The position numbers and the translations under genes were made by a program. Positions 799 through 19,654 of a DNA stretch of 21,538 nt are shown in pieces. The notes below the pieces were generated by a model. The model worked only from the letters and a program-made list of their open reading frames with translations, was not told the origin of the DNA and ran no database searches. Origin of the DNA: Clostridia bacterium (GTDB lineage: Bacteria; Bacillota_A; Clostridia; Oscillospirales; Acutalibacteraceae). The stretch spans positions 1 to 21,538 of the forward strand of contig JAFYUD010000112.1 in assembly GCA_017549665.1 (NCBI GenBank), in the 5' to 3' direction. Position 1 is the stretch's first letter; every line of letters starts with the position of its first letter.

Positions 799-1923
799 TT
801 ACAGATTTGTATTATAGAGTCCCCTGCTGTATTTATTCAGAAGACAATGATATCTGTACCATTCTGTATAGCAATCCTCGATTGACGCCGCATAGCGCAT
901 TACACTTCTTGCATCCCTTGCGGTGATTTCTGTACTCTGACATGTATTTGCAGCATTCCGCTGATATGAATCTTTAATATAATCAATCCCTGCAGAATGA
1001 CGGAGTATAATTCTTGCATCGGCAGCTGTCACTTTACCGTCACTGTTTACATCACCTATAACAGTCAGCGTGGATGTAAAAAACAACGCATTATCATAGC
1101 ATTGTCTGAATTGTGCACCTGTCGGCACATAATCATCACGATCAAGCACTTTACCGTCATTATCTGTAACAATACCATACCCTGTACCGCAATCTACAGA
1201 ATCAATAAATTCACCGACAGTCATAGGATATGCAAGTTCAGTATCTGCAGTTCGATCATACATCGATCCGATATGCAGCATTCCGTAAGTAAGGCTGTTT
1301 TCCATATCAAAAGCAGGAATATCCGGAGCTTCATCAACAGTATGAGTATTTAACGGAATCCAATTTTTTTCAATTTCAACATCTATATTGTTACCGTCCT
1401 TGTCCTTCATATCTGAAAAAACAATATCAAAATCAAAGCTTCCGAGTGAAATCGCCTCAATTACAATATCACACAAGATTGTTTGTGTAAATTCCCGTCC
1501 GTCAGCAACAATCTCATATTCACAATACCCATTACCTTCCTGTACAAGCTCAGCTTTCAGATATTCTCTGGGAACCGAATAACTATTATCATTCAAATCA
1601 TAATACCAATCCATAGGTTCCGAATCTCCATGGAATTTTATCGTCGAAGCATTGTAACTGATTGTCATTTTTCCGGATGACAGACTGTCAAAATCAAACA
1701 ATTTAACACAAATATAACTTTTTTCTCCGATTACAGGCATAGTAGTGGTCTCTGTTAATTTCTGAAACTCCCGACCATCTTCTGAATACTCAGTATCAAT
1801 CATTGTATAAATCCCGAATCCGACACTTACACGAGGTGTCTTATCTTCTTCTGCTGAAGCACTGATTACAAACAAGAAAAAAAGCATCAGTAAGCATATT
1901 ATTACCGATAAAAATTTTTTCAT
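799..1923 (-). CDS. Secreted dockerin-containing protein, last gene of the sigma/anti-sigma/dockerin series
   Basis: 374 residues from the ATG at 1923, preceded by GAGGTGAGGTG six bases upstream; a GTG at 1932 is in frame but lies inside that ribosome binding site. Residues 1-25 form a signal peptide (KK, a long hydrophobic core, then SASA). A beta-rich region at about 30-200 has no catalytic motif I recognise. It is followed by a short module (TVGEFIDSV ... DGKVLDRDDYVPTG) of the sort often seen just before dockerins. The C-terminal dockerin spans about 290-350. Its first repeat, GDVNSDGKVTAADAR, is intact. In the second, the calcium loop is degenerate (NTCQSTEITARDAR), so binding may be weakened. 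The start is 10 bases beyond the stop of the preceding dockerin gene, consistent with co-transcription. The ligand and enzymatic role are unknown. Confidence 0.85.
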   Translation of the reverse strand: MKKFLSVIICLLMLFFLFVISASAEEDKTPRVSVGFGIYTMIDTEYSEDGREFQKLTETTTMPVIGEKSYICVKLFDFDSLSSGKMTISYNASTIKFHGDSEPMDWYYDLNDNSYSVPREYLKAELVQEGNGYCEYEIVADGREFTQTILCDIVIEAISLGSFDFDIVFSDMKDKDGNNIDVEIEKNWIPLNTHTVDEAPDIPAFDMENSLTYGMLHIGSMYDRTADTELAYPMTVGEFIDSVDCGTGYGIVTDNDGKVLDRDDYVPTGAQFRQCYDNALFFTSTLTVIGDVNSDGKVTAADARIILRHSAGIDYIKDSYQRNAANTCQSTEITARDARSVMRYAASIEDCYTEWYRYHCLLNKYSRGLYNTNL

Positions 1924-1933
1924 ATCAAACACC

Positions 1934-3106
1934 TCACCTCGGAGTATTTATCATCGGGTCGTACCAGCAGACGGAATAACCGAACATTATCTGATACTTT
2001 GTTTCAAGCCCTGCTGCTGTTCTCAAGGCAAGTCTTGCATCGGCAGAAGTAATATTTCCGTCAAAATTCATATCAGCGCAGTAATAAAATCTCTTGAGGT
2101 TTTCCGTTGCCTTTTCAAGTCCTGCTGAATATCTGAGAATATATCTTGCATCTGCCGCTGTGACACCGTTGTAATCCACTGCAGATTCGTCCTTCTTTCC
2201 GTAGACATCACCGAGCATAAACTGTCCTGTAGCACACAGCAAGCCGCCTGTACACATATCGTTGAAAAATGCATCTGAAATAAATTTAAGCTCTGACATA
2301 TTCTTAATTGTTGCAGCATCAGTTTCATCCACACGGACAACAGCCGCATTTACACTGTCACCTACATAAAGAATATCTTCAGCGTCAAAATATTTGCTCA
2401 GCACACTCAGATTCTTTTCCCTTACAGATTCTGTACCCTCGGGGACATCAAAAATCAGTGTAACATACCCTGCCACATCGCTGAGCTTTTCACTCACATA
2501 ATATTCAGTATAATCAAAATCACCGAGAAATCTCAGCTTTTCTGCATAAAGTGCAACCGAATATGCAAGCAGTTCATCATAATAAATCTTATAATATGCA
2601 TTATTGAGCATATTTCTTCTGACAGTATTGACTGTATGATTTGAGCTGTCAATTGTTTCGATAAAAGGATTATATGAGCCTCTGTAGTTGGGAATAGACT
2701 CAGCAGAATCAGGATAAACGGGGATGTACTCGTCTGTGTAATCAAGCTCGATATACATTACATATTCATTGTCTTTAAGTGTCTGACAAAGGGCAACTAC
2801 GTTTTCTTCTGACGGATTCTTAAGATTGAGCTGAAGAATGACCCGATAATAATCAAGACTATACATATCAGGATCATAAGGATACAGATTAATAACACTG
2901 TCAACCAGCTCCTGACTGAACATCTCAGGAGTGAATTCATCAAATTTAAAAGTATATTCTTCTTCTATCATTACATACACATGTGTAAAAAGAAAGCCTG
3001 CAGCTTTTTCCTGCTCAGAAACAACCCTGTTTTCTGCAGATACAGGCAAAAGAAGACATCCTGTCAATAAAACAATACTCATCAGAATAGCAGTAAATTT
3101 TTTCAT
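1934..3106 (-). CDS. Secreted dockerin-containing protein with alpha/beta repeats
   Basis: 390 residues from the ATG at 3106, which has AAGGAG eight bases upstream overlapping the end of the preceding gene; the frame is open further upstream but without a better start. The signal peptide is residues 1-24 with a likely VSA|EN cleavage. An LTGC sequence resembles a lipobox but sits inside the hydrophobic core. The mature part contains two look-alike alpha/beta segments (around 80-125 and 215-285). In each, a strand of alternating hydrophobics is followed by a helix and a second strand, reminiscent of ferredoxin-like propeptide folds. The dockerin spans about 299-367. Its first calcium loop is disrupted by an insertion (GDVYGKKDESAVDYNGVTAADAR), while the second is canonical (ADMNFDGNITSADAR). 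No catalytic motif was recognised. Confidence 0.82.
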   Translation of the reverse strand: MKKFTAILMSIVLLTGCLLLPVSAENRVVSEQEKAAGFLFTHVYVMIEEEYTFKFDEFTPEMFSQELVDSVINLYPYDPDMYSLDYYRVILQLNLKNPSEENVVALCQTLKDNEYVMYIELDYTDEYIPVYPDSAESIPNYRGSYNPFIETIDSSNHTVNTVRRNMLNNAYYKIYYDELLAYSVALYAEKLRFLGDFDYTEYYVSEKLSDVAGYVTLIFDVPEGTESVREKNLSVLSKYFDAEDILYVGDSVNAAVVRVDETDAATIKNMSELKFISDAFFNDMCTGGLLCATGQFMLGDVYGKKDESAVDYNGVTAADARYILRYSAGLEKATENLKRFYYCADMNFDGNITSADARLALRTAAGLETKYQIMFGYSVCWYDPMINTPR

Positions 3107-3119
3107 CAATATCACTCCT

Positions 3120-3746
3120 TTATAAATTTGCGGCTTTGCGTAAAGCCTGTCTTGCATCGGAAGCGGTGATTCTTCCGTCTGCATTCATATCTGCACGTTC
3201 CCTCTGCGAGGAGGAAAAACGTTCAAGCAAGGCTGTGTAGCGAAGAATGAGTCTTGCATCGGAGGCTGTGACCTTCCCGTCAAAATTCACATCTCCCGTA
3301 ACATCCTTGCCCTTATACTCAAACTCGGCTCTCTTCGTAATACTGTCACCGTCAACGTAAATAACCATAGTCGCTCTGTATGTGCCGGTTTTACTGACCT
3401 TTACGGAATGAGTCTTGCTCGTATATATACTCATTGAGCTGTCAGTCCACTCCGTACTTCCGTTGCCGAGGTCAATTTTACTCCAGAAAACGCCCAGTGT
3501 TTTTCGTTCTATATATGTTTTTACAATTATTTTACCGCTGTCTGCAAGTCCCGACACGGTATACATCAGTGTGGCGATACCGCCGTCTGAAATATAAAAC
3601 GTAAGACTTGAATTATAGATATTGACAAAGTTCACCGGCATTGCCATCGGCTGAACATCTGTCGCATGTCCTATAATCACATTATAGGACACAATCAGAA
3701 AGACCGCAATAATAATTGCCGAAATTTTTTTAATTATTTTCCGCAT
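3120..3746 (-). CDS. Small secreted beta-sandwich protein with C-terminal dockerin (paralog B)
   Basis: 208 residues from the ATG at 3746, chosen because it aligns with the MRK start of the upstream paralog; a GTG at 3758 is the alternative, and neither has a clear Shine-Dalgarno, so translational coupling to the gene ending at 3778 is likely. It has a signal peptide or membrane anchor, then one module of about 105 residues (YNSSLTFYISDGG ... GTYRATMVIYVDG), predicted all-beta and similar to small secreted Ig-like modules of Firmicutes. A complete dockerin follows with two canonical loops, GDVNFDGKVTASDAR and ADMNADGRITASDAR. It is about 70% identical by eye over 127 residues to the product of 3778-4485, so the two arose by tandem duplication. 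It carries no catalytic residues I recognise and is more plausibly a structural or binding component than an enzyme. Confidence 0.85.
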   Translation of the reverse strand: MRKIIKKISAIIIAVFLIVSYNVIIGHATDVQPMAMPVNFVNIYNSSLTFYISDGGIATLMYTVSGLADSGKIIVKTYIERKTLGVFWSKIDLGNGSTEWTDSSMSIYTSKTHSVKVSKTGTYRATMVIYVDGDSITKRAEFEYKGKDVTGDVNFDGKVTASDARLILRYTALLERFSSSQRERADMNADGRITASDARQALRKAANL

Positions 3747-3777
3747 AAAATCAATCACGCCAAATCAAAAAATTAAA

Positions 3778-4485
3778 TCATAAGTCCGTATAATCCTCTT
3801 CAGGAGCAAGAGTGCAAGGTTCCGTTGTGCCCCAGTCAATAAGATTTGTGGTAGATTCAACAACATTACTGTCAAACCCTGCAGATTGACGAAGAATCCG
3901 TCTTGCATCAGAAGCTGTAACGACACCGTTTCCATCCATATCAGCACGGTATTTCTGTGAATCAGTAAAGCTGTCAAGTCTTGCAGAGTAGCGCAGAGTA
4001 CTTCTTGCATCAGAAGCGGTAATTCTGCCGTCAAAATTCACATCACCCATGATATTTTTTCTGCTGTACTCGAACTCTGCAGTTTTCGTGATACTTTCAC
4101 CGTCAACATAAATAACTATGGTTGCTCTGTATGTACCGTCCTTGCTGACACTGAGGGTATGTGTATTGCTTGTATATACACCCGTTGAAGTATCAGTCCA
4201 CTCTGATGACCCGTCAGGAAGCTTTACTCTGCTCCAGAATACACCCAGTGACCTGCGATCAATATACGATTTTATAATTATTTTTCCGGTATCCGCACGA
4301 CCCGACACTGTATACATCAGTGTTGCAGTGCCGTTAGCAGAAACGTAAAATGTAAGACTTGAATTATATATATCCACAAATTTCACATTCTGCTCCTGTG
4401 CGGAATTGACTGAAAATGTATTGCTGCTGATAATCACACACACAGCTAAAATTACTGTAAAAATTTTTTCAATTCTTTTTCTCAT
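3778..4485 (-). CDS. Small secreted beta-sandwich protein with dockerin (paralog A)
   Basis: 235 residues, starting at the ATG at 4485 with a weak GTGAG about ten bases upstream. The signal peptide spans residues 1-29 (cleavage near VNSA). The beta module at about 34-142 matches paralog B closely, sharing LTFY, TLMYTVSG, LGVFWS, SEWTD and TYRAT. The dockerin at about 147-203 has two intact calcium loops (GDVNFDGRITASDAR and ADMDGNGVVTASDAR). Unlike paralog B it has a tail of about 30 residues after the dockerin, rich in Thr, Glu and Asp. It starts only 45 bases after the anti-sigma-like gene with no terminator between, so it probably belongs to the same transcript. The biochemical role is unknown; attachment to a cohesin-bearing partner is inferred from the dockerin. 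Confidence 0.87.
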   Translation of the reverse strand: MRKRIEKIFTVILAVCVIISSNTFSVNSAQEQNVKFVDIYNSSLTFYVSANGTATLMYTVSGRADTGKIIIKSYIDRRSLGVFWSRVKLPDGSSEWTDTSTGVYTSNTHTLSVSKDGTYRATIVIYVDGESITKTAEFEYSRKNIMGDVNFDGRITASDARSTLRYSARLDSFTDSQKYRADMDGNGVVTASDARRILRQSAGFDSNVVESTTNLIDWGTTEPCTLAPEEDYTDL

Positions 4486-4530: not shown

Positions 4531-5211
4531 TTACCGTGAAGCATCCTCCGAATGCTCTTCAGATGCATCCAGAATAAGCTCAATAATTTCCTCAGGCTCA
4601 ATATCACAGTAGCAATCAAGGCTGAAGGTATATTTGGGCGTTGTCCATAACAGAAGATAATAGCCCTCTTCTGAATAGATATCAAACTGCACACCGTTAA
4701 CATATCTGCTGCTTTTCACAAGGCGCTGATTATCAAGCGAACGGTTTGTAAGTCCGTCACCCTGCTGGAGAATAATAACCTGCTCACCTTTTTCCCAGAC
4801 AGAAACTGCTGTATGGTCTGTTCTGTCCTGATCTTTAAGTCTGAAGCCCTCAGATTCAAAATCAGGCATAAGAATATCACTTATCTCTTCACCTGCAGGA
4901 ATGTCACCTGCTTCATCAAAGCCGTACTGCAGATCTATATGGTCTTTTTTATTGCTTTCAAAGTAATTTATCACTTTATCCCTGACATCTGCCATGGACA
5001 AAAGCATAGTTGAAGCAAGAAGGACCATGACCGCCGCAATGGGTAAGATCCGTCTGAAAATCTTCTTTACACGGCTGTTATTCTTGATCAATGGCTCCGT
5101 CTGAGCAACAAACTGTTCTGACGGCTCCCATTCTGCGGATTCACAAGCTATTTCAAAATACTCCTCCATTGCCGCTTCCTGAAGGGCTTTCTTTAACTTT
5201 TCATTTACCAT
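4531..5211 (-). CDS. Single-pass membrane anti-sigma-like protein with DUF4367-like extracytoplasmic domain
   Basis: 226 residues. The start ATG at 5211 lies inside the end of the sigma factor gene (11-base overlap) with a strong GGAGGTGAT upstream, so translation is coupled. The N-terminal part (1-50) is a short cytoplasmic segment rich in charged residues. A transmembrane helix spans about 54-73 (ILPIAAVMVLLASTMLL). The outer part (75-226) has strand-rich features resembling DUF4367 domains (SVWEKGEQVIILQQGD). This arrangement, a small cytoplasmic head, one membrane pass and a sensor-like outer domain directly behind an ECF sigma factor, is that of an anti-sigma factor. A classical zinc-binding HxxxCxxC motif is absent, so the binding head is non-standard. 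The role is inferred from position and topology. Confidence 0.8.
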   Translation of the reverse strand: MVNEKLKKALQEAAMEEYFEIACESAEWEPSEQFVAQTEPLIKNNSRVKKIFRRILPIAAVMVLLASTMLLSMADVRDKVINYFESNKKDHIDLQYGFDEAGDIPAGEEISDILMPDFESEGFRLKDQDRTDHTAVSVWEKGEQVIILQQGDGLTNRSLDNQRLVKSSRYVNGVQFDIYSEEGYYLLLWTTPKYTFSLDCYCDIEPEEIIELILDASEEHSEDASR

Positions 5212-5758
5212 CGGCGATCATCACCTCCCCGGAAAGTTTTTCAATCAATATCTTTTTACCTCTGACAAGCTGTTGTTTTACTGTTGCAGCTTTTCTGCCA
5301 AGCGCATCTGAAATCTGACTGACAGACATATCCATAACATACCGCATATAAAGAACATCCTTGTAAGAATCATCCATCCCTCTTATCACATTCAGAACGT
5401 CGGTATACTCCGCCTGCGCAAGCATTTCCTCGAATGACCTTTCATCCGGCAGATCATAAAGCTCTTCAATGCTTAAATCCCCCGCACTGCGGCTGTTTTT
5501 GCGTGCAATATTCAAAGCCGCATTCTTTGCAGCCTTGACACAGTAGCACTTTCCGTCGTTTTCAGAAGCCTCAAGAAGCACATTTATATGCTTCGAGATA
5601 GCAACGAATGCATTATGCACTGCGTCCTCGGCTTCGTAAGTATCACCTAAAACCGAATATGCTGCATAAAACATTGCTTTGCGGTAAGTCACGTAATAAT
5701 ATTCAAATGTTTTTCTGCTTTCAGAATCACTGACAGCAGTCAGATAAAGTAAAAACAT
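5201..5758 (-). CDS. ECF-type RNA polymerase sigma factor
   Basis: 185 residues, normal for the extracytoplasmic-function group. Region 2 spans about 17-86, including DTYEAEDAVHNAFVAISKH, the core-binding and -10 recognition helix. Region 4 spans about 115-175 and includes MDDSYKDVLYMRYVMDMSVSQISDALGRK followed by ATVKQQLVRGKK, the helix-turn-helix that reads the -35 element. Region 3 is absent, as expected. It is first in a minus-strand series with its anti-sigma partner (overlapping) and four dockerin genes, which are its most likely regulon. The ribosome binding site before the ATG at 5758 is weak. An ECF-like promoter at 5786-5815 suggests that the protein drives its own operon. Confidence 0.93.
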   Translation of the reverse strand: MFLLYLTAVSDSESRKTFEYYYVTYRKAMFYAAYSVLGDTYEAEDAVHNAFVAISKHINVLLEASENDGKCYCVKAAKNAALNIARKNSRSAGDLSIEELYDLPDERSFEEMLAQAEYTDVLNVIRGMDDSYKDVLYMRYVMDMSVSQISDALGRKAATVKQQLVRGKKILIEKLSGEVMIADGK

Positions 5759-6574: not shown

Positions 6575-6599
6575 GGGAAGGCTTTCGCCTTCCCTTTTT
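6575..6599. terminator. Bidirectional terminator between the PHP gene and the CARF nuclease gene
   Basis: GGGAAGGC/GCCTTCCC (6575-6582 with 6587-6594) forms a perfect 8-bp stem with a TTTC loop and TTTTT on the plus side. The As before the stem give a short T run on the minus strand, so it can serve both converging genes. It overlaps the stop codon of the minus-strand gene. Confidence 0.9.
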
Positions 6600-7842
6600 A
6601 TAATACTATCTTTCTTAACTTTTTTCTGATATCGTCGTCACTTATTTCATGCACACCCTCGATAACGTCAATATCCATATCCTTTGCACGCTGTCTGATA
6701 TGAATTTTTGACTCTTCGGGTACATTACCCATGTATGAGCAGACAAGGACAGTCTTCACATAAGGGCCTCCGAATCGCTCGGCAACAGCCTTGATTTTAT
6801 AAAGCTCCTCGTCCTCTACACGTCCGTTTTTACAGGAAATAAACACCGGCTGAAGCCCGTGCATAAGCACCACATCAACCTCATTGACGGTATCCTTTAT
6901 ACTTTCACTGCCTGTATGTATCATCGCATCCCAATCAATATACACGCCCGTTTCGGCATCTGTATAGACAGCATTACCCTCCGGATCCTTGCATGTAAGA
7001 GACAGAATAAGAATTGCGACCTCAAGAATTGTGCCCGATTTACGGAGAAGACGTTTTATCTGATGATCCTTGATTGCAAATGAGATATATTCTCCCGAAT
7101 CCTCAAGACCTGCAATAACACCAAGCTTCACAAGCTCATCAGCAACATCCTCGACCCATGCAAACTCCTGACCTTTCTTTTTCATTTTGTTTGCAATTTC
7201 TGTCCGTGAAGCAGTCAGATACAGACCATTTTCACCTGAATCCAGGCTGATGACTGCAGCCACAGTATTTATCATTGCGTTCCATCTGCCGGGATTTCTC
7301 TTGCACAGATGCCATAACGCCATTACGTCCGAAACGAATTCATCCGTAAGATGCCACAGATGCGTGTCATATTTTGAATTACGCATCAGCGTGCCGCCGT
7401 AAAGAGCAATATTATCCTCCACGGTAATTTCAGGCTCACCCTCATAAGGAATTATTCCGTCACTGTCACAGTCAAAAATCGAGCCTGTGGAAATATTGAA
7501 TCTGTGCATCTGAATCTGTTTTTCGTCCTTATAACGCTCGTAGACGATACCCATTGCCACAAGCACGAGGTCCTCTCCGCCCGTCAGGTCAAAAACACAG
7601 TAATCATCCTCAAGAACAATTTTCTCAAGAATTCCCACAACATTCGAAATACTGTTACGGTTGATATTCACATACTCAAGCTCTATATCAAGCTTCTTCC
7701 TTCTGAGGAAACGTTCATAGTGTTCCTTGTATTTATTCATCGTTTTTTTGTCACCGATAAAAATGATTTTATCCGGCTCCATAGTAATACAGCTTACCAT
7801 ATTATCAATTGAAACTTTATCAAAAAATTCAACAACCGTCAT
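6598..7842 (-). CDS. CARF-domain nuclease of the Card1/Can2 (DUF1887) type
   Basis: 414 residues. The N-terminal CARF-like Rossmann domain (about 1-135) has strand DKIIFIGD followed by VFDLTGGEDLV (TGGE at 87-90), the position where cyclic oligoadenylate is held in the family. A winged-helix-like linker follows (about 165-260, TASRTEIANKM). The C-terminal restriction-endonuclease-like domain has GTILE (Glu274), NEVDVVLMHG (Asp323) and PVFISCKNG (Lys338), matching the E...D...xxK core. VC1899 and Card1 share this CARF-HTH-nuclease order. In type III CRISPR systems such proteins cut DNA and RNA once the Cas10 second messenger binds. No cas gene or repeat array is in the window, so its activator is unknown. 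GGTGATAA precedes the ATG. It is soluble and cytoplasmic. Confidence 0.88.
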   Translation of the reverse strand: MTVVEFFDKVSIDNMVSCITMEPDKIIFIGDKKTMNKYKEHYERFLRRKKLDIELEYVNINRNSISNVVGILEKIVLEDDYCVFDLTGGEDLVLVAMGIVYERYKDEKQIQMHRFNISTGSIFDCDSDGIIPYEGEPEITVEDNIALYGGTLMRNSKYDTHLWHLTDEFVSDVMALWHLCKRNPGRWNAMINTVAAVISLDSGENGLYLTASRTEIANKMKKKGQEFAWVEDVADELVKLGVIAGLEDSGEYISFAIKDHQIKRLLRKSGTILEVAILILSLTCKDPEGNAVYTDAETGVYIDWDAMIHTGSESIKDTVNEVDVVLMHGLQPVFISCKNGRVEDEELYKIKAVAERFGGPYVKTVLVCSYMGNVPEESKIHIRQRAKDMDIDVIEGVHEISDDDIRKKLRKIVL

Positions 7843-7879: not shown

Positions 7880-7888
7880 ATTATAACA
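7880..7888 (-). promoter_or_regulatory. Extended -10 promoter of the CARF nuclease gene
   Basis: On the minus strand TGTTATAAT (TG-n-TATAAT) ends about 37 bases before the ATG. The -35 region is poor, as is usual for extended -10 promoters. It gives the nuclease its own low-level transcription independent of malQ upstream; no clear terminator separates malQ from this gene, so some readthrough is possible. Confidence 0.65.
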
Positions 7889-7919: not shown

Positions 7920-9425
7920 TCAGCCTCGTCTGAACAATGTATTTATCTTTCTGAAATACTCACTGTCCATACTGTTGATTGTATCTTTTGTTGTTCTGAA
8001 TCTCCAGTTCTTTTCGGGCACTCCGGGGATATTCATTCTCGCATCCGAGCCGAAGCCGCACATATCCTGAAATGCAATAATTGCAGTTTCCGAGGCTGAG
8101 CGCCATACTGTTTCAATAACCTTACGGCAGCTCTTTGAATAATATCCGCCGTCACCCCAGTTGTCACCCTCAAAACCGATGTAATCAAGAGCAAAACGAC
8201 GCTCCTTCTCCCCTGCTTCCCAGAGCCAGCCGAGAATAGTGTTATTGTCGTGAGTGCCAACGTAATTGACAGAATTTCTCTGTGCATTATGAGGCATATG
8301 AGAAGAATCACCGTCAGGATCAAAACCGAACTGAACAACCTTCATTCCGGGGAATTTTGTATCTTCAAGAAGCTTTACAACGTCTTCACCGAAAACACCC
8401 AGGTCTTCTGCAATGATAGGAGCATCGGGGAACTTTCTGAAAACCTTTTTAAAAAGCTTCATGCCGGGTCCCTGCTTCCACTCTCCTGTCTTTGCAGTTT
8501 CAGCATCAGCAGGTACTTCCCAGTAGCTTGCAAATGCTCTGAAATGATCAATTCTGACAACATCATAAACAGAAAGGGCATTTCCGATTCTTTCAAGCCA
8601 CCATTTGTAACCATCCTTATCCATAGCTGCCCAGTTATAGATAGGATTACCCCACAGCTGACCGTCAGCACTGAAATAATCAGGAGGTACGCCTGCCACC
8701 TTTTCAGGGCAGAGCTTTTCGTCATCAATAAGAAACATGGGCAGATTTGACCACACATCCACACTGTCCATTGCAACGTAAATGGGCATATCACCGATAA
8801 TCTTTATACCCTTTGAATTAGCATAATCCTTGAGCTTCTGCCACTGTGTGAAGAATATATACTGACAGAATTTCCAGAATGCAGAGCGTTCTGCATAGTC
8901 ATGTCTGTGTCTTCTCTTGAAAATATCATAACGGGCAAAATCCTCATCCCATTCCCACCAGGGACGGAAATCATTGGCTTCCTTCACTGCCATAAAATAT
9001 GAGAAGGTTGTAAGCCACTTGTGTTCAGCTTCAAAATCCTTGATTTTCTGTGCAAGTTCAGTGTCAATTCTTGAAAATGCAGTTTTCAGAAGAGCAAGTC
9101 GTGCTTTTTTCGCAAAATCAAAATCAGCAGTATAGGGAGTGCCGTCATAAACATTGGTCCTTGCTTCATCTGCTGTGCAAAGTCCCATTTCCACAAGCCC
9201 CATAGGGTCAATGAAAAGAATATTTCCTGCAAATGCTGATGCAGAGCAATACGGAGAATTTGCATCATCAACAGGATTAAAGGGTAAAACCTGCCAGTAT
9301 GAAAATTTCATTTCAGCAAGCTTATCTGCAAAATCATAACAATTTTTATCAAAAACACCGATACCGTAATCAGAAGGTATTGAGCTTATATGCATAAGCA
9401 CACCGGCACCTCGTTTATTGAACAT
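7920..9425 (-). CDS. malQ: 4-alpha-glucanotransferase (amylomaltase, GH77)
   Basis: 501 residues from the ATG at 9425, preceded by GAGGTGATT; an upstream in-frame start at 9458 lacks support. The enzyme moves maltodextrin segments between alpha-1,4-glucans and releases glucose; it acts in the cytoplasm. GH77 hallmarks are in place: RGAGVLMHISSIPSDYGIG at the N terminus, then VVRIDHFRAF with the nucleophile Asp293, IIAEDLG with acid/base Glu340 and VGTHDNNT with Asp393. It also has GDMPIYVAMDSVDVW and PPDYFSADGQLWGNP. Full length for the short bacterial form. It lies directly downstream of the GH63-like glycosidase on the same strand but has its own promoter and is separated from it by a terminator. 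Confidence 0.97.
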   Translation of the reverse strand: MFNKRGAGVLMHISSIPSDYGIGVFDKNCYDFADKLAEMKFSYWQVLPFNPVDDANSPYCSASAFAGNILFIDPMGLVEMGLCTADEARTNVYDGTPYTADFDFAKKARLALLKTAFSRIDTELAQKIKDFEAEHKWLTTFSYFMAVKEANDFRPWWEWDEDFARYDIFKRRHRHDYAERSAFWKFCQYIFFTQWQKLKDYANSKGIKIIGDMPIYVAMDSVDVWSNLPMFLIDDEKLCPEKVAGVPPDYFSADGQLWGNPIYNWAAMDKDGYKWWLERIGNALSVYDVVRIDHFRAFASYWEVPADAETAKTGEWKQGPGMKLFKKVFRKFPDAPIIAEDLGVFGEDVVKLLEDTKFPGMKVVQFGFDPDGDSSHMPHNAQRNSVNYVGTHDNNTILGWLWEAGEKERRFALDYIGFEGDNWGDGGYYSKSCRKVIETVWRSASETAIIAFQDMCGFGSDARMNIPGVPEKNWRFRTTKDTINSMDSEYFRKINTLFRRG

Positions 9426-9458
9426 GGGAATCACCTCAGAAAGTAAAATAACACACAA

Positions 9459-9487
9459 ATTTTATCATATTCAATAAAAAAAATCAA
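9459..9487 (-). promoter_or_regulatory. Sigma-A promoter of malQ
   Basis: On the minus strand TTGATT (9482-9487), a 17-base spacer and TAAAAT (9459-9464), with TG one base before the -10. Predicted transcription start near 9452, leader about 27 bases. No operator or CcpA-like site was identified. Confidence 0.7.
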
Positions 9488-9510
9488 CAAAAAGAGATGA
9501 AATTGATTCA

Positions 9511-9544
9511 AAAAAGCAAAAATTCCCGTATTTCTACGGGAATT
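9511..9544 (-). terminator. Terminator after the GH63-like gene
   Basis: A perfect 10-bp stem AATTCCCGTA/TACGGGAATT (9521-9530 with 9535-9544) has a 4-base loop. On the minus strand it is followed by TTTTTGCTTTTTT. It separates the large glycosidase from malQ. Confidence 0.88.
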
Positions 9545-9553
9545 CATAGTGTT

Positions 9554-12313
9554 TTATGAAATTTTCAGTGTATGTACTTCATTGTCACTTACTGACATTT
9601 CAATCTCAAGTGTGCCCTTGAAACGCTCGTTGTAAGCAAGCTCTTTGCCGTCAAGTGTGACTGTATATTTCTTATTTTCATCATCATTCATTGTTGCGAT
9701 AACAGTGAATTTTTCATTATTGCCGAAATATGTGAAATCACAATCAAGCTTTGTATTGTCATCACTGAATTCAGATTTATCAACCCATGTATCAAAGCCT
9801 GTATTGAGTGTACCTGCCTTGAAATATGCATTTGCCCACATTGTAATGGGTGTTGAAAGACCGCCGAAATTATGGAACCAGCCGCCTCTGCCTGTTACGA
9901 CATTGACCATTTCAAATGTGTAATATGAATAGTCAACTTCTCTCTTCCAGATATCAAGGGCAAGCTGTGCAATCTTATAAGCAAAGTCACTTTCAGCCAT
10001 ATCAAGCATTGACTTCCAGATAAACCACTGATGGGGGAACCATACATTACCGTTCCAGTAACCGTTTACCATGAAATAGCCTGCTGTCATATCAACTGCG
10101 CTGATACCGTAAGGTGAAAGCATCTCTTTTTCACTCTTGAGATGAGCAAGAATAGCCTTTTTCTGTTCTTCATTACAAGCGCCTGCAATAATGGGATATA
10201 TTCCGTCAAGACCCTTATTGAGATTTTCTCCGTCTGCGGTGCGCATAAGCTCACCTGTAGGATTATAATCCTTATCGTGAAGCACATAGCCGTAATATCC
10301 GCTTTCAGCATCCCATGCATGATCTGTCAGAGCTGCAGTAAGCTTTGCAATATCCTCATCATAAACCTTCACATCATCTGTCTTACCAAGCTTTGCGGCA
10401 GCCATCTTAAGAATTTTACCGCATCTGATAAGCTGAGATGTTGAAAGCACGGAGCCTGTTGTATCACGGATATTTCTGTCCATCATAGCAACCTGAGCAG
10501 GATAATCATCCATGCCGCTTGTTGAATAGAAATAGTCATAAGTTGTTGTAAGGCCGCTCTTAAGTTTTGCTGTTGTTGAGCCTCTGACCTTACCTGCAAG
10601 GAAATCATAATAAAGCTTTACTCCGGGATAAAGCTCAAGAAGCTTTGTCTTGTCATTTCTGCGTTTGAGCATTTCAAGCCACAGATACATCTGCACGGGC
10701 ACCGGTGAGCCGTGATGCAGGAACGCATAATCGGGATTGCTTTCGTCACTGAGATAAGTCTCAAGGCTGTAATCTGCAAATCTTTCGGAATAGTCATTCA
10801 TACCAAGACCGATAAAGCCTGAGTCCCATGTATAAAGGCAGTCCCAACGCTTACCGGGGGTGTGATGAATGATATATTCACCGTGCTTGTAAATGGGATA
10901 AACGGCATTGACCATAACCGTTGACTTGAGAATTTCACAGCTGAGTGAATACTTCTCGCCGTCCTTATTGAGCTTTACGTGCTCGGCTTCCTTCATTCTT
11001 TCGTTATAGATATTTTCATATTCCTGAGCTGAAAGATACTCTGTTTCACCCTTTGAAAGTACAGCATACTCTATATACTCTGAATCAGGATCAATAAACA
11101 ATGTATGAACAATCGCATTGTGGAAGAAGCCGTCATCACTGTGCTTTCTTGAAAATGCACCTGTAAAGCTTTCGGTTACATCGTCAAATGTAACGTCTGA
11201 ATTTGAAAGTCTTGCAGTCATACAGTCTTCAAGTGCGCCTGTTTCAATTCTTCTGTAACGAGTATTATCATTGAATGTGCGAAGAGTGAAAACACCGTCA
11301 ACACCTGCATATCTGCAGGTTGAAATATAACCCTTATCGCACTTTTCTTCCGTGATTTCGGGCATGAATTCATAAGGAGTCATTACTGCGCTGACTTTGT
11401 GCGCATCTTCTTTTTCAGTAATACAGAAGAAGTCAAACTCTGCAGCGCCGGTACCAAGACCTTCAAGAGAAAGTCTGAATTCTCCCTTTTCAACAGCGCC
11501 AAGCTCAACGAGCATGATTTCAGGATCGTCACAGGGAGTAAAATCAACCTGTTTTCCGTTCACAAGGAAGGAAGCAGTTTTTTCACTGTTGATAAGATTT
11601 ACACCGACCATTTCACCCTGAACATAGTGAATATCACTTGTGCGGTATCTTATAACAAGAACTGCATTTTCATAGTCATTTTTACAGTCGATCACAAACT
11701 GTGCCTTATCCCCCTTTTCTGCGCCGAAGGGAGGGATATATCTGTGCGGCATGTGCCACTTGTTTGCTCTGTCACCGAGACCGAAGCCGCCCGTAAAACG
11801 GTTGTCTGCAAACTCTCCCTTTTTAAATCCGTCTGCATTTTCACCGTCCCAGGGTCTTGCCGTTGCATACTCATAAAGCACGTAATCAAGAGCATTCTTA
11901 TACTCACACTTTTCAGGAAGAGAAAGCGCACAGTATGACGGTGTGGGATATTCAATTGAGCTGAAATAGTTAACAAGACAATTCTGCATAAGCTCAGAAT
12001 TGTTCACGAATTTTGTACGGATAAGGGTGCTTTCATCAGAAAGTCTTACGTAAGAAACCTCTGCGTAAACCTTGTCTTTCCACTCAAGATCATGTCTGTA
12101 TGTAAAAACGGAGTAATCAGGTGAGCATCTCCAGGGATGGCAGCCTGAAGGAAGTGTTACGTTGGGAACTTTTATATCACCGCCGAAAACTGCAGGCACG
12201 GTTGTCACGTCGAAACGGACACCCTTTGCAAAATCATGGTCTGCAATGCGTGATATGCCCATATATTTTTTGCCGTAAGGACCCCATGCAGGGAATGCGT
12301 GAGAATATATCAT
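9554..12313 (-). CDS. Large cytoplasmic glycoside hydrolase with (alpha/alpha)6 barrel, GH63-like
   Basis: 919 residues from the ATG at 12313, about 10 bases after AAAGGAAAA; an in-frame GTG at 12319 is possible but too close. No signal peptide. The N-terminal half (about 1-460) is beta-sandwich-like with Trp- and Tyr-rich stretches. The C-terminal half (about 465-840) carries the barrel motifs TWDSGF (495-500), SGMDDYP (599-605), YWNGNVWFPHQWF (752-764), TFEMVN (Glu801) and WFHNFGG. The WDS, MDD and WNG-W motifs are characteristic of GH63/GH37-related clan GH-G enzymes, which invert alpha-glucosidic bonds; the second Asp of MDD is a likely general acid and Glu801 a likely base. A small beta domain closes the protein. 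The substrate cannot be read from the sequence. Location next to malQ suggests an alpha-glucan or oligosaccharide. Confidence 0.82.
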   Translation of the reverse strand: MIYSHAFPAWGPYGKKYMGISRIADHDFAKGVRFDVTTVPAVFGGDIKVPNVTLPSGCHPWRCSPDYSVFTYRHDLEWKDKVYAEVSYVRLSDESTLIRTKFVNNSELMQNCLVNYFSSIEYPTPSYCALSLPEKCEYKNALDYVLYEYATARPWDGENADGFKKGEFADNRFTGGFGLGDRANKWHMPHRYIPPFGAEKGDKAQFVIDCKNDYENAVLVIRYRTSDIHYVQGEMVGVNLINSEKTASFLVNGKQVDFTPCDDPEIMLVELGAVEKGEFRLSLEGLGTGAAEFDFFCITEKEDAHKVSAVMTPYEFMPEITEEKCDKGYISTCRYAGVDGVFTLRTFNDNTRYRRIETGALEDCMTARLSNSDVTFDDVTESFTGAFSRKHSDDGFFHNAIVHTLFIDPDSEYIEYAVLSKGETEYLSAQEYENIYNERMKEAEHVKLNKDGEKYSLSCEILKSTVMVNAVYPIYKHGEYIIHHTPGKRWDCLYTWDSGFIGLGMNDYSERFADYSLETYLSDESNPDYAFLHHGSPVPVQMYLWLEMLKRRNDKTKLLELYPGVKLYYDFLAGKVRGSTTAKLKSGLTTTYDYFYSTSGMDDYPAQVAMMDRNIRDTTGSVLSTSQLIRCGKILKMAAAKLGKTDDVKVYDEDIAKLTAALTDHAWDAESGYYGYVLHDKDYNPTGELMRTADGENLNKGLDGIYPIIAGACNEEQKKAILAHLKSEKEMLSPYGISAVDMTAGYFMVNGYWNGNVWFPHQWFIWKSMLDMAESDFAYKIAQLALDIWKREVDYSYYTFEMVNVVTGRGGWFHNFGGLSTPITMWANAYFKAGTLNTGFDTWVDKSEFSDDNTKLDCDFTYFGNNEKFTVIATMNDDENKKYTVTLDGKELAYNERFKGTLEIEMSVSDNEVHTLKIS

Positions 12314-12346
12314 AGTCACTTTTCCTTTTTTGTTTAGTTTTGAATA

Positions 12347-12375
12347 ATTGTAACATATGTACGGATTTCATGCAA
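12347..12375 (-). promoter_or_regulatory. Sigma-A promoter of the GH63-like gene
   Basis: On the minus strand TTGCAT (12370-12375), a 17-base spacer and TACAAT (12347-12352) with an extended TG. It lies back to back with the promoter of the plus-strand membrane protein gene, whose -35 is also TTGCAT; the two -35 elements are 20 bases apart. Confidence 0.75.
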
Positions 12376-12395
12376 TATAAATCATAAACTTTTTA

Positions 12396-12424
12396 TTGCA
12401 TATACTCAACAAATGTGCTAAAAT
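12396..12424 (+). promoter_or_regulatory. Sigma-A promoter of the YjdF-like membrane protein gene
   Basis: TTGCAT (12396-12401), a 17-base spacer and TAAAAT (12419-12424), preceded by TG-C. Start expected near 12431, about 25 bases before the ATG, with AGGAG in the leader. Confidence 0.75.
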
Positions 12425-12455
12425 AATATGAGATAAATTTCAGGAGAAAAAATTA

Positions 12456-13157
12456 ATGAAAAAATTGAACAATATTACACCAATACCGAAATCACATGAG
12501 ATTTTCTGGTGGATATGCAGAGGAATCATGGTGCTGTGCTCCATATACGGCATACTCAACAACTCTGTAACAATGTATCTTATGGGCGTTTTCTGCGTGG
12601 CGTTTTCGCATCTGTGGGATATGTTCCAGCTTTTCGGAGGAAAATCCTTCATAACGAGAGTTGACTTCTTCGCACAGACGATTCTCAACGTTTTCCTTGT
12701 GTATTCCGTCGGTGTCTACATGATGAACACAAGAACAAACATCCATTTCTTTGACATTCTTTCACACTCAGGCTCAGGCTTCATCGCAACATGGTTTGCA
12801 TATGATTTTGCAGTAGTCTTCCAGGGCAAGAAAAGACACTTGAGTCCTGCTCTTGCGTCGTTTTTCTCATTCACATTCTCAATGTTCATAGCTGTTGCGT
12901 GGGAATTGTACGAGTTCACAATGGACAGAGTCTACGGCTATATGCTGCAGACGTCACCGGTCATTTCCGAGCAGGGTCTTGTTGATACAATGGAAGACTT
13001 CATCTGCTGTGTTGCAGGCTCACTTATCGGACTTTTCGCAGTTGCATTCTACAGAAACGGAATCATCGGCAAAAACAGAAAGCAGCTCAGAGCAGAAGTT
13101 GTGGCTCGTTCAAAGCAGGACAGAAAAGAAGAGCTTGAATTTCTCGGAATTGAATAA
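12456..13157 (+). CDS. Polytopic membrane protein, YjdF/DUF2238-like
   Basis: 233 residues; AGGAG nine bases before the ATG. Roughly six hydrophobic segments are visible (about 16-34, 38-56, 70-88, 97-117, 126-146 and 182-204). Conserved polar residues sit in or near the membrane: FSHLWDMF, FDILSHSGSGF, AWELYEF, and DTMEDFICCVAGSLIG near the C terminus. The His/Gly, Trp-Glu and Asp-Thr-Met-x-Asp pattern is shared with YjdF/DUF2238 proteins, whose function is not established. The C terminus is a basic cytoplasmic tail. It has its own promoter and terminator, so it is a single-gene unit divergent from the glycosidase. The family call is by motif and topology only. Confidence 0.78.
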   Translation: MKKLNNITPIPKSHEIFWWICRGIMVLCSIYGILNNSVTMYLMGVFCVAFSHLWDMFQLFGGKSFITRVDFFAQTILNVFLVYSVGVYMMNTRTNIHFFDILSHSGSGFIATWFAYDFAVVFQGKKRHLSPALASFFSFTFSMFIAVAWELYEFTMDRVYGYMLQTSPVISEQGLVDTMEDFICCVAGSLIGLFAVAFYRNGIIGKNRKQLRAEVVARSKQDRKEELEFLGIE

Positions 13158-13172
13158 TTGATAAAGATTAAA

Positions 13173-13201
13173 GCCGTTCAGTTGCCTGAACGACTTTTTT
13201 T
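13173..13201 (+). terminator. Terminator after the YjdF-like gene
   Basis: CGTTCAG/CTGAACG (13175-13181 with 13186-13192), extended by one further pair across a mismatch, is followed by seven Ts. The last bases overlap the stop codon of the converging gene at 13200. Confidence 0.85.
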
Positions 13202-14612
13202 ACTTTATTTTGACTAAGAATGTAACAGAATAATCCTGCCAGTGTGCTGTCACATAAGTTTCACCTTTTGCCTTAGGAATTATCTTATCATCATCGACAG
13301 CTATTATATTTTCATCAAAATCCGTAAGAGTAATCCCGTTTCTGACCCGTTTATCATCCTTATTACCGTCATATCTGTAAACCTCCGCACTGAAAGCACC
13401 GTCTTCAAGGTTTTTTTCATAAATATGAGGATCGGTAGTTATACCTGCAGTTGTACGGTAAACAGATTTTGAAACAGGGCTGAATTCTTCCTTCACATTG
13501 TCATTTTCCGTATCACTGAAATCAGGACTGTCAATCAGCGAAAAAGTGACCTGCTGAATTCTTGTTGCCCATGTGCCGAAGTTTTCACCGTAAGCATACG
13601 AAAGATAAACGTCGTCGTTCAGCCGTATATGACCGTTTTCTCTTGAAGTAATACCGCAATTATGAAGATTATGTATAGTATTTGTTTTAAGGAAATATGA
13701 ATTTTCGAACTCTGTTCCGTCATCTGACACATACACCTTGATATAGCTGTCGGTTGTGAATCTGGACGCAGTTGAAACAGCAATGAATTTGCCGTAATCC
13801 TCAATATACTTCACGTCAGAAGAATCGGTATCACCCTGAACATGGTCTATTGCAACACCTGTATATTCGAGAGTTGCAGGCCAGTTTTCATCATTTGCAT
13901 CTGCAAGAGAAAGCCGGGTCTGATTCAGTTCATTTTCACGCCATGTGTAATAGAGATATAAGGTGTCATCGAGAACTACCATTGACGGCTCACCGGCACC
14001 GTAAGACCCGGGATTTCCTGTATATGTGATTACAGGCGCAGGTTTTCCGCCCCAGCCGTTACCGTTCCATTTTTCATAAGGACCGTCGATATTCTTACTT
14101 CTTGCAACAAACACATCATTATTGACTCCGCCGTCAGTAGCAGTTGACGTATATGCAAGGTAATAATACCCGCCGAACCTCACTATACCCGGATCGCAGC
14201 AGGAATAGAAATCGGCTGAATCAGGTGTAGGTGCAAGCACTGATTTCTCCGATGTCCAGCTTTTTCCGCCGTCAGGTGAATGTCTGTAAAAAATATAATC
14301 CCATTCGTCAAAAATACCGGGAGCTGAGAAAAAGGCATCAATACTGCCGTCAGCATTTCTGATTAAAGTCGGACCGTAACGGTAAACATAGCTCTGATTT
14401 TTTGCAGGAGTATAAATATCATTGCCCGTATCTGAAGCAACCATTCTGACATATTTTTCTCCGTCAGGAGCAACAGACAATTCTTCATCGGTGTATACTC
14501 TGTTTTCAAGAGGAGTATATTCAACAGTTTTTTTATTTACAGATAAAAAACCGAACACAATAACGCCCGCAACAATAAGACAAGCGATGACAATTATAAT
14601 TAATTTTTTCAT
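13200..14612 (-). CDS. Membrane-anchored five-bladed beta-propeller protein, GH43-like, with C-terminal Big2-like domain
   Basis: 470 residues. Residues 4-24 form a hydrophobic anchor without a cysteine lipobox, so the protein is probably exported and held by an uncleaved N-terminal helix. Residues 75-400 show propeller blades as in glycosidase clan GH-F and related families: RYGPTLIRNADGSIDAFFS, HSPDGGKSWT, CCDPGIVRFGGYYYLAYTS (Asp140) and GAGEPSMVVLDDTLYLYYT (Glu208). The Asp in CCDPG and the Glu in GEPSMV are candidate catalytic acids, but the usual Asp at the first blade is replaced (YGP), so activity is uncertain. Residues about 420-470 resemble a bacterial Ig-like (Big2) domain. It starts nine bases after the monophosphatase-family gene and should share its transcript. 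Confidence 0.75.
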   Translation of the reverse strand: MKKLIIIVIACLIVAGVIVFGFLSVNKKTVEYTPLENRVYTDEELSVAPDGEKYVRMVASDTGNDIYTPAKNQSYVYRYGPTLIRNADGSIDAFFSAPGIFDEWDYIFYRHSPDGGKSWTSEKSVLAPTPDSADFYSCCDPGIVRFGGYYYLAYTSTATDGGVNNDVFVARSKNIDGPYEKWNGNGWGGKPAPVITYTGNPGSYGAGEPSMVVLDDTLYLYYTWRENELNQTRLSLADANDENWPATLEYTGVAIDHVQGDTDSSDVKYIEDYGKFIAVSTASRFTTDSYIKVYVSDDGTEFENSYFLKTNTIHNLHNCGITSRENGHIRLNDDVYLSYAYGENFGTWATRIQQVTFSLIDSPDFSDTENDNVKEEFSPVSKSVYRTTAGITTDPHIYEKNLEDGAFSAEVYRYDGNKDDKRVRNGITLTDFDENIIAVDDDKIIPKAKGETYVTAHWQDYSVTFLVKIK

Positions 14613-14621
14613 AACATCATC

Positions 14622-15377
14622 TCAGATTGATTTATTTTTTGCAAGAATTGAAGTTTTACCTTCAAATGAAAGAGGCTTGCCGTCAAGAGATGTCACAACA
14701 CCGCCTGCTTCTTCAACAAGCAACTTTCCTGCCGCAAAATCCCATGGAGAAACCTGCAGCTCAAAAAACAGCTCTGCTCTGCCCGCTGCAACGTTACATA
14801 AATCCAATGCTGCTGAGCCGCTTCTTCTGATATCAAGAGCCTGATAAAAATAGTCTGAAAGAACTTCCAGAGTTTGTGTAAAAAGCTCTTTATCATAAGG
14901 AGACGAGCCGAAAAGGACAAGAGCATTACTTAAAGGCTGAGATGACACGCTCATCCTTTTTCCGTTACAAAACGCACCCTGACCTTTAATTGCAGAAAAT
15001 ATTTCATCAAGATAAGGATTGTAAACAACGCCTGCAACAGCCTCCTTACCCTTAAGCAAAGCAACGGAAATTGCGCTCATGTGATAATCCTTTACGAAAT
15101 TTGTAGTACCGTCGATAGGATCAACAATAAATGCATAGCCGTCATCAGATAATTCATCATGTGAGCCTTCCTCACCGATAAATTTAGCCTCAGGCAGGAT
15201 TTTCTTAAGCCCCTGCTCAAGCTTTTCCTGAACACCCTTGTCATACTCGGTGACAAGATCTGCAACGCCCGATTTTATATCAATCAGCATTTTCTCTCTG
15301 TCTGCGCCGAGGATTACCTTACCGCATTCCTTTACAAGAGAACAGATTTCATTAACAGTCTGAGTCAATATATTCAC
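14622..15377 (-). CDS. Inositol-1-monophosphatase family phosphatase
   Basis: 251 residues from the GTG at 15377. Metal-binding and catalytic motifs are complete: IGEEG (Glu69, Glu70), DPIDGTTNF (Asp86, Asp89) and SPWDFAAG (Asp213). The family removes phosphate from inositol phosphate, fructose-1,6-bisphosphate, 3'-phosphoadenosine 5'-phosphate or sugar phosphates; which of these applies cannot be told from sequence alone. The start is uncertain: the GTG lacks a Shine-Dalgarno, while a TTG three codons later (15368) is preceded by GGGTGA at a good distance, which would give 248 residues. It is first of a two-gene unit with the propeller protein, an unusual partnership. Confidence 0.92.
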   Translation of the reverse strand: MNILTQTVNEICSLVKECGKVILGADREKMLIDIKSGVADLVTEYDKGVQEKLEQGLKKILPEAKFIGEEGSHDELSDDGYAFIVDPIDGTTNFVKDYHMSAISVALLKGKEAVAGVVYNPYLDEIFSAIKGQGAFCNGKRMSVSSQPLSNALVLFGSSPYDKELFTQTLEVLSDYFYQALDIRRSGSAALDLCNVAAGRAELFFELQVSPWDFAAGKLLVEEAGGVVTSLDGKPLSFEGKTSILAKNKSI

Positions 15378-15514: not shown

Positions 15515-15599
15515 GCGGATATGGTGGAATTTGCAGACACGCAAGATTTAGGATCTTGTGCCCACAAGCGTGCAGGTTCGACCCCTGTTATCCGCACCA
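15515..15599 (+). tRNA. tRNA-Leu (anticodon UAG), CCA encoded
   Basis: Acceptor stem GCGGATA (15515-15521) pairs perfectly with TATCCGC (15589-15595), followed by A and the encoded CCA (15597-15599). The anticodon stem CAAGA/TCTTG (15542-15546 with 15554-15558) holds loop TTTAGGA with anticodon TAG (15549-15551). The T arm GCAGG-TTCGACC-CCTGT is normal, with one G-U pair. A long variable arm, as expected for class II tRNA-Leu, lies at about 15559-15571. It reads CUA and probably other CUN codons. Confidence 0.96.
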
Positions 15600-15646: not shown

Positions 15647-15776
15647 TCAAAAATCGCTTAACACAAGGCTTTTCGGCACTCTTGCAAATGAGATTTGTTT
15701 CGCTGTATCAAAATCGAACCCCAAAAAGTCAAAGTTGAGTGACTCAAACCTACCTCTCTCTTACCTCTCAAAAAAG

Positions 15777-15830
15777 CACAATGACACTTATCTTAAAGAT
15801 TCGTGTCATTGTGACAAAGATAAGTGTCAT
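15777..15830. promoter_or_regulatory. Phased GTGTCAT half-sites with overlapping dyads upstream of the islet gene
   Basis: Three copies of the heptamer are present: ATGACAC (15781-15787, inverted), GTGTCAT (15803-15809) and GTGTCAT (15824-15830). Their centres are 22 and 21 bases apart, about two helical turns. The first copy can pair with the second (11 bp, 15777-15787 with 15803-15813) or with the third (14 bp, 15781-15794 with 15817-15830). All lie upstream of the -10 at 15859, with the nearest copy near -44, a position used by transcription activators. A protein operator is therefore more likely than an RNA switch. Elsewhere in 15647-15776 there is a 13-base palindrome (15735-15747) and a direct repeat TACCTCTC (15751, 15762), with no gene. 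Confidence 0.6.
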
Positions 15831-15855
15831 AGTCCTTTTAATTGGACAGATAATG

Positions 15856-19239: not shown

Positions 19240-19654
19240 TAACATGGAACTTAATTTTGACAAGCTGAAAATCCATGAGGATTCATCTTCTGACGGTATG
19301 CCCGTTTCAGCACTTGCTTTTCTCGGCGACGTGGTATGGGAAATCATGGTGCGTGAAACACTGACAGTTTCAGGCAAATGCAAAGCAGACAAGCTTCATG
19401 CAAGAAATATTGAAATGGTCAACGCAACGTATCAGGCCAACGCATCAAAGCTTCTCATGGAGCATCTGACCGAGGATGAAACAAGAATGTTCATCCGTGG
19501 CAGAAACACACATACTGCACATACTCCCAGAAACAAATCAAAAAGTGAGTATCATGCCGCAACGGGACTTGAGGTGCTGTTCGGCTGGCTCTACATAAAC
19601 GGCAAAACAGACAGAATAAAAGAGCTTTTTTCAATAGTTATTGATGAGGTGTAA
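19229..19654 (+). CDS. mrnC: Mini-ribonuclease III (MrnC), 23S rRNA maturation
   Basis: 141 residues from the ATG at 19229, which has TGGAG seven bases upstream and overlaps the obgE stop by 11 bases; a second ATG at 19244 lacks a ribosome binding site. The RNase III catalytic fold is present without a double-stranded RNA-binding domain. ALAFLGDVVWEIMVR carries the catalytic Asp, and RGRNTHTAHTPRNKSKSEYHAATGLEVLFGWLYI is the second signature, with the YHAATGLE Glu as the other metal ligand. In Bacillus this enzyme trims the ends of 23S rRNA precursor on the ribosome, which suits its coupling to obgE. Confidence 0.94.
   Translation: MCPDNMELNFDKLKIHEDSSSDGMPVSALAFLGDVVWEIMVRETLTVSGKCKADKLHARNIEMVNATYQANASKLLMEHLTEDETRMFIRGRNTHTAHTPRNKSKSEYHAATGLEVLFGWLYINGKTDRIKELFSIVIDEV

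Follow-up and report, generated by a model that had tools for sequence, protein, structure and literature searches.

The 21,538-nucleotide (nt) stretch of DNA analysed here, from a gut bacterium recorded as Clostridia bacterium (contig JAFYUD010000112.1; the window), encodes, at 6598..7842 on the minus strand, a 414-residue protein with an ATG start that joins an N-terminal CARF domain (a Rossmann-like sensor) to a winged-helix-like linker and a C-terminal PD-(D/E)XK nuclease domain. Most descriptions of CARF nucleases with this fold concern type III CRISPR effectors. The reading that we prefer, with slightly less than even confidence, is that this protein is a ligand-gated nuclease re-tuned away from cyclic tetra-adenylate (cA4), and that its family is mainly CRISPR-independent and, in many relatives, tied to an RCK/RyR channel and a Clp/FtsH protease.

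The protein matches the Pfam family Card1_endonuc (PF09002; 28.4 bits against a cut-off of 26.4) and, over nearly its full length, the PADLOC family CARF4--CARF_PDDEXK (PDLC01895, residues 2-411; E-value: 1.5e-27). The CARF domain (approximately residues 1-130; 7453..7842, minus strand) has fold matches to Csa3, Csm6 and ring nucleases. The helical, winged-helix-like linker (approximately residues 167-266; 7045..7344, minus strand) is seen in the secondary structure of the model and in the full-length alignment to VC1899 and Can2. The nuclease domain (approximately residues 267-414; 6601..7044, minus strand) contains E274, E321, D323 and K338, as located by PF09002, residue counts across the family and the alignment to Can2 and VC1899. 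A single-sequence search of solved structures with the window protein returned nothing relevant, and a broad profile (A2) was needed. The best structural match of the model is VC1899 of Vibrio cholerae (PDB 1xmx), an orphan CARF nuclease of the DUF1887 family; the cA4-activated type III effectors Can2 and Card1 (7bdv, 6xl1) also have this fold, with the same CARF-linker-PD-(D/E)XK layout and an aligned catalytic Glu/Asp pair. The original prediction had called the gene a Card1/Can2-like CARF-HTH-nuclease with a CARF TGG motif and an E...D...SCK core, and proposed comparison of a structural model with Card1 and VC1899. Fold and active site prove to be right, the helix-turn-helix region corresponds to the helix/strand segment of the linker in the model and the solved structures, and both motifs are present and conserved (T87-G88-G89; E321-x-D323 ... 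S336-C337-K338).

The family is mainly found in Clostridia and is related to VC1899 and Can2. A protein search gives 760 homologues at E-values of 1e-3 or below, of which the best 120 were listed and 33 of these entered an alignment with the window protein (A1); from genome contigs, the best 80 of 226 relatives were kept (L001-L080; 79 genomes, mostly metagenome-assembled genomes [MAGs] that may be incomplete). The tree and alignment used below have 90 rows, 14 duplicate or superseded loci having been removed beforehand. All 90 rows retain E274, E321, D323 and K338. E321 and D323 align with Glu276/Asp278 of Can2 and Glu291/Asp293 of VC1899, named as the catalytic pairs in PMC7969007.

The sensor pocket is altered. 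The same paper gives Ser19, Thr42, Lys99 and Tyr118 as the cA4 contacts common to Can1 and Can2; unlike Can2 and Card1, the window protein has D8, D31, D91 and R114 at these positions, which were counted by hand on the alignment of profile A2 to 7bdv (E-value: 2.4e-10) and 1xmx (E-value: 1.8e-12). Position 91, equivalent to Lys99, is acidic in 88 of the 90 rows (D in 58, E in 30); position 8 is D in 76 rows and E in eight, position 114 is R in 71 and K in seven, and position 31 is variable (D in 40). In this alignment, a different and largely conserved set of residues takes the place of the canonical cA4 contacts throughout the family. N14 and G88-G89 are invariant and E5 is present in 89 rows. 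The CARF pocket is likely to bind a ligand or partner still, and because the cA4-contact residues are replaced, the messenger of this family is probably not cA4.

VC1899 offers an alternative, namely that the window protein is an orphan without messenger gating that has no part in defence and is either a nuclease for housekeeping or stress or one whose activity is weak and residual. According to PMC7969007, VC1899 is an orphan with weak RNase activity that is neither regulated nor activated by cA4, and its residues equivalent to the four contacts are Asp9, Asp34, Arg96 and Val115; like the window protein, it lacks the Can2-type contacts. The window gene is likewise solitary, and its GC content equals that of its surroundings (0.418 versus 0.412). 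We nevertheless regard this alternative as unlikely. The strong conservation of N14, E5 and G88-G89 would be hard to explain without a ligand or partner, and the spread of the family is patchy, more like that of an accessory gene: homologues occur in 43 of 300 genomes from the family of G048 (E-values of 1e-3 or below) and in two of the 11 genomes of the nearest genus, the genus to which five of the best DNA matches to window 7920-15377 belong (G407, G238, G308, G363 and G130). These two are G238, the only genome of the 11 with a channel gene, and G443, where the match lies near a contig edge and contains a stop. The two proteins also differ: in the structural alignment they are 16% identical, the Lys99 position is occupied by Arg96 in VC1899 and by D or E in this family, and relatives of the window protein are often near RyR/RCK-channel genes. 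The window is not unusual in this respect: members of the family commonly have no cas genes nearby, and the literature already has an orphan of this kind in VC1899.

The association with channel and protease genes comes from ORF (open reading frame) clustering of 80 loci and the window. A membrane protein, mostly of about 580-950 residues, is found near the CARF gene in 32 loci, a protein with Clp-type AAA, FtsH-type AAA and M41 peptidase domains in 25, YbjN-like proteins in 16 and a small RyR-domain protein in 14 (PF02026; E-value: 7e-36 for L001). Proteins labelled sigma-like (10 loci) and anti-sigma-like (eight loci) were so named from sequence and gene order; that of L037 matches sigma-70 region 2 below the cut-off. 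Most recurrent neighbours share the strand of the CARF gene. The tandem-RCK region of the membrane protein has fold matches to the RCK-gated channels CASTOR, DMI1 and GsuK, the gating rings of plant CASTOR and DMI1 being the closest solved folds. It differs from these in adding a C-terminal RyR-like segment (weak in L010). With a cut of 8 kb, on which the neighbourhood labels depend, at least one island gene accompanies the CARF gene in 41 of the 90 rows, and the channel or RyR itself in 33. When only the 54 rows flanked by at least 4 kb on either side are counted, an island gene is present in 29, and one row, L120, lies in a CRISPR operon. On the tree, a quick one made without bootstrap, the island label changes 29 times compared with 29.9 in shuffles; because the label is scattered in this way, the association is not one clade's accident. 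The window protein groups with L001, L002 and L006, which have islands, and with L005, whose flank is too short to tell; these five form a supported set.

The same association is seen across genomes. Among the 300 genomes, CARF homologues (E-value below 1e-40) occur in 19, the membrane protein (profile A3; E-value below 1e-50) in 23 and cas10 (E-value below 1e-20) in 10. CARF and membrane protein occur together in 10 genomes (1.46 expected, p = 5e-8), several times on different contigs; CARF and cas10 occur together in two (0.63 expected, p = 0.13), and still in two (1.14 expected, p = 0.32) when all 18 genomes over the Pfam cut-off are counted. No paper linking RyR with CARF is among the matches listed in literature searches, which covered few subscription papers.

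Other loci show related combinations. Three proteins of 993-1476 residues (L127:3268-6246, L128:1153-5580 and L129:3692-6685, the last on the minus strand) end in a Card1-type nuclease domain (PF09002) and adjoin an RyR-domain gene or match, the L128 protein adding a protein-kinase domain; the nuclease domain seems to combine with different sensors beside RyR. A neighbour common to L003, L008, L022, L047 and L065 lies at approximately 1.1-1.3 kb (3.7 kb in L047) and presumably resembles a PrsW-type membrane protease. A NAD-derived (nicotinamide adenine dinucleotide) signal made by TIR proteins was considered as the usual partner and rejected: TIR-like genes are present in six of 81 CARF loci versus five of 12 RCK/RyR-channel loci without a CARF gene (L155, L156, L157, L158 and L164), as counted with a home-made profile that missed a Pfam TIR match in L035. 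The channel may have either TIR or the CARF nuclease as its partner.

The mechanism that we envisage for the preferred reading begins with the N-terminal CARF domain, which would sense a small messenger. Binding of the messenger would open the C-terminal PD-(D/E)XK domain of a probably dimeric, ligand-gated nuclease, leading to DNA nicking, RNA cutting or both. The commonest partners would be the predicted RCK-gated channel with its C-terminal RyR-like segment, the small RyR protein, the Clp+FtsH AAA+/M41 protease and the YbjN-like protein, joined at times by sigma/anti-sigma-like proteins, and the whole may act in a stress or anti-phage response. Since the window gene stands alone beside malQ, its own partners may be elsewhere in the genome or lost. 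If this model holds, a family with an intact active site in every member examined, with replaced cA4 contacts and, usually, with no detectable cas10 would imply further inputs to CARF sensing, and the recurrent predicted channel, CASTOR/DMI1-like with an RyR-like end, would point to ion flux and regulated proteolysis within the same response.

Several observations weigh against this reading. Pocket arguments from residue identities do not prove that cA4 is unbound. Eight of the 41 island rows have protease, YbjN or sigma-type genes alone, and 24 of the 54 well-flanked rows have neither an island gene within 8 kb nor a CRISPR operon, a label also given to L035 and L057, where a channel gene and a Cmr operon with CorA, respectively, lie just past that distance. 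The 21.5-kb window contains none of the channel, RyR, protease, YbjN or sigma-type island genes of the relatives. The thresholds of the co-occurrence analysis were set after the lists had been seen, and its statistics ignore kinship. A ligand-making enzyme was not recognised in the islands, where no systematic search for one was made. Finally, type III CRISPR is not absent from the family's surroundings: one type III-B operon ends with the L120 member, six of the 79 carrier genomes have cas10 (four III-B: G002, G045, G447 and G448; two III-D: G005 and G456), L005, a clade-mate of the window protein, is in one of these (G005, with a III-D Cas10), and G068, a good DNA match to the window outside the nearest genus, has a candidate match to the Cas10 profile PF22335 (E-value: 8.9e-9).

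These type III genes bear on the first option of the original prediction, that the protein is an ordinary in-trans effector, activated by a cyclic oligoadenylate from a type III CRISPR system elsewhere in the genome. The fold is that of the cA4-activated Can2 and Card1, and one of the relatives is a member of a Cmr operon (L120). L057, where some 8 kb separate the CARF gene from a Cmr operon that has its own CorA, says little. G005 with L005 is the strongest hint for this option. PF22335 matches seven of the 79 carriers, strongly (E-value below 1e-20) in the four III-B genomes and more weakly in G005 and G456, whose proteins are type III-D Cas10s (PADLOC Cas10d; E-values: 2.8e-71 and 3.8e-85) accompanied by RAMP genes; the matches in G027 (L084, L085) are GGDEF proteins and were rejected, and an E. 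coli control also gives a PF22335 match. Because PF22335 barely catches III-D, a Cas10d profile was also run on the genus and the carriers; it added no genome to G005 and G456. Neither profile finds Cas10 in the nearest genus (11 genomes) or in 73 of the 79 carriers, absences that are soft because MAGs may be incomplete. The family differs from Can2 and Card1 both in its replaced contacts and in having cas10 in only six of 79 carriers, and in the 300 genomes CARF and cas10 co-occur no more than by chance (p from 0.13 to 0.32). The III-D locus of G456, moreover, already has a Csx1/Csm6-type CARF-HEPN gene. The in-trans explanation is weakened and we regard it as unlikely, and the second option of the original prediction, another nucleotide signal, is favoured: the cA4 contacts are replaced, and RyR/RCK-channel and Clp/FtsH-protease genes are the commonest neighbours.

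The III-D loci of G005 (L083) and G456 (L154) are compact, with a Cas10 of approximately 500 residues and Cas5/Cas7 genes of III-D type. L083-L085 show no tblastn similarity to Cmr-type Cas10s. The PF22335 matches of G068, G107, G191 and G206 are of similar size and score, may also be III-D, and include none of the 19 CARF-carrier genomes of the 300-genome sample. G020, the other good DNA match outside the genus, has a CARF homologue and no PF22335 match.

A further explanation, to which we give little credence, is that the CARF pocket senses SAM-AMP (ATP joined to S-adenosylmethionine, SAM) or a similar cationic messenger. According to PMC10600005, D70 and E151 are absolutely conserved acids in CorA-1-associated Cas10s; they are thought to let Cas10 accept SAM, and the acids that replace the phosphate-binding lysine in this family (position 91) are a parallel to them. 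L120 (G074) is the operon in question: its family member (37-38% identical) comes immediately after Cmr6, and the operon includes Cas6, Cas10 and Cmr genes along with a CRISPR array of 12 exact repeats. When the Cas10s of L120, L136 and L137 are aligned to chain 9lq5_B, which we take from its residue numbering only to be the B. fragilis Cas10, D70 and E151 fall on D79 and E161 of the L120 Cas10, which also keeps GGDD. Both acids are present in the Cas10s of L120, L136, L137, L147, L148 and L149. The III-B Cas10 of L146 has N at the first position, the III-D Cas10s of G005 and G456 have neither acid, and in L140-L145 neither is seen, a lack that is uncertain because the region compared aligns with gaps (the III-A label of these six loci, and the names Cmr1 and Cmr3-5, are readings from sequence and gene order).

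CorA, according to PMC10600005, is a membrane protein; its fold is other than that of the CARF nuclease. PADLOC identifies CorA in the four other signature operons with visible surroundings: after Cmr6 in L137, after Cmr6 with a DEDDh-type gene in between in L057 (same contig as L148; 2159-4227, about 8 kb from the CARF-family gene), before Cmr1 in L136, and as an 838-residue Cmr6-CorA fusion in a type III-B operon with a SAM-AMP-type Cas10 (L147:1717-4230, minus strand). The contig of G447 (L149/L153) ends before CorA could show. No CorA is seen in the L120 operon, where the CARF nuclease has the place after Cmr6 that CorA has in L137. The signature is present in five of seven Cas10s from carriers of a close CARF homologue (G002, G045, G074, G447 and G448; not G005 or G456) versus one of eight others (Fisher p = 0.035), in a sample that is small, related and drawn from two different lists; the eight others include G095 and G205, which have distant CARF homologues, and the single signature among them is that of G205. 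A SAM-AMP-reading acidic pocket would rest mainly on the single operon that joins a CARF nuclease to a signature Cas10, as L057 says little, its Cmr operon already having CorA. The VC1899 pocket also has acids, and in 73 of the 79 carriers no Cas10 that could make SAM-AMP was found. The L120 operon is a direct test case for reading of SAM-AMP by a CARF domain. Slightly more doubtful again is a combination of this idea with the preferred reading, in which the family would supply the nuclease of an alarm module, undescribed so far and mainly independent of CRISPR, that is built on an RCK/RyR channel and a Clp/FtsH protease. Its pocket would have been re-tuned from cyclic oligoadenylates to a SAM-AMP-like cationic messenger, and the nuclease could be plugged into either SAM-AMP-making type III-B systems or the channel module.

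Around the window gene itself, the original prediction that no cas gene or repeat array is nearby is borne out, the term orphan being established for these 21.5 kb only. No CRISPR-like repeat family was found in the window, and PADLOC matched none of its families to nine flanking proteins, a scan that omitted ThiI, two of the four dockerin proteins, malQ, the GH63-like protein, the protein at 14622-15377, Obg, the protein at 19223-19654, YitT and LepA. The claim of the original prediction that the gene has its own extended -10 promoter stands in part: a possible element, TGTTATAAT, can be read at 7880..7888 on the minus strand (7888-7880) as a consensus match, with no good -35, and a promoter scanner has a high background here (15 promoter-like sites in 2.5 kb versus 6.4 in shuffles). 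The malQ gene lies upstream on the same strand, and because the gap is just 77 nt, read-through from malQ is possible. At 6575..6599, between the CARF nuclease gene and a convergent PHP gene, a stem-loop (GGGAAGGC-TTTC-GCCTTCCC) followed by a T run was seen by eye and is absent from the scanner list; it is likely a terminator common to both genes.

Around malQ of G407 (85% identical), 5.7 kb were examined. The gene directly after malQ there is a dockerin gene, and these 5.7 kb contain neither a CARF nor a PHP match, so the site is variable. A phage or plasmid origin was considered and rejected, as a tblastn search of 50,697 phage and 72,556 plasmid records gave no match and there is no confirmed relative in viral contigs; recent acquisition was rejected on composition, the gene and window having equal GC content.

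Four successive dockerin-like secreted proteins with diverged direct repeats are encoded at 799-4485 of the window, and a gene for an ECF-type sigma factor (5201-5758) adjoins them. A tRNA-Leu gene is located at 15515-15599, and approximately 170 bp downstream of it there is an inverted repeat (15772-15839) with 23-nt arms that are 91% complementary.
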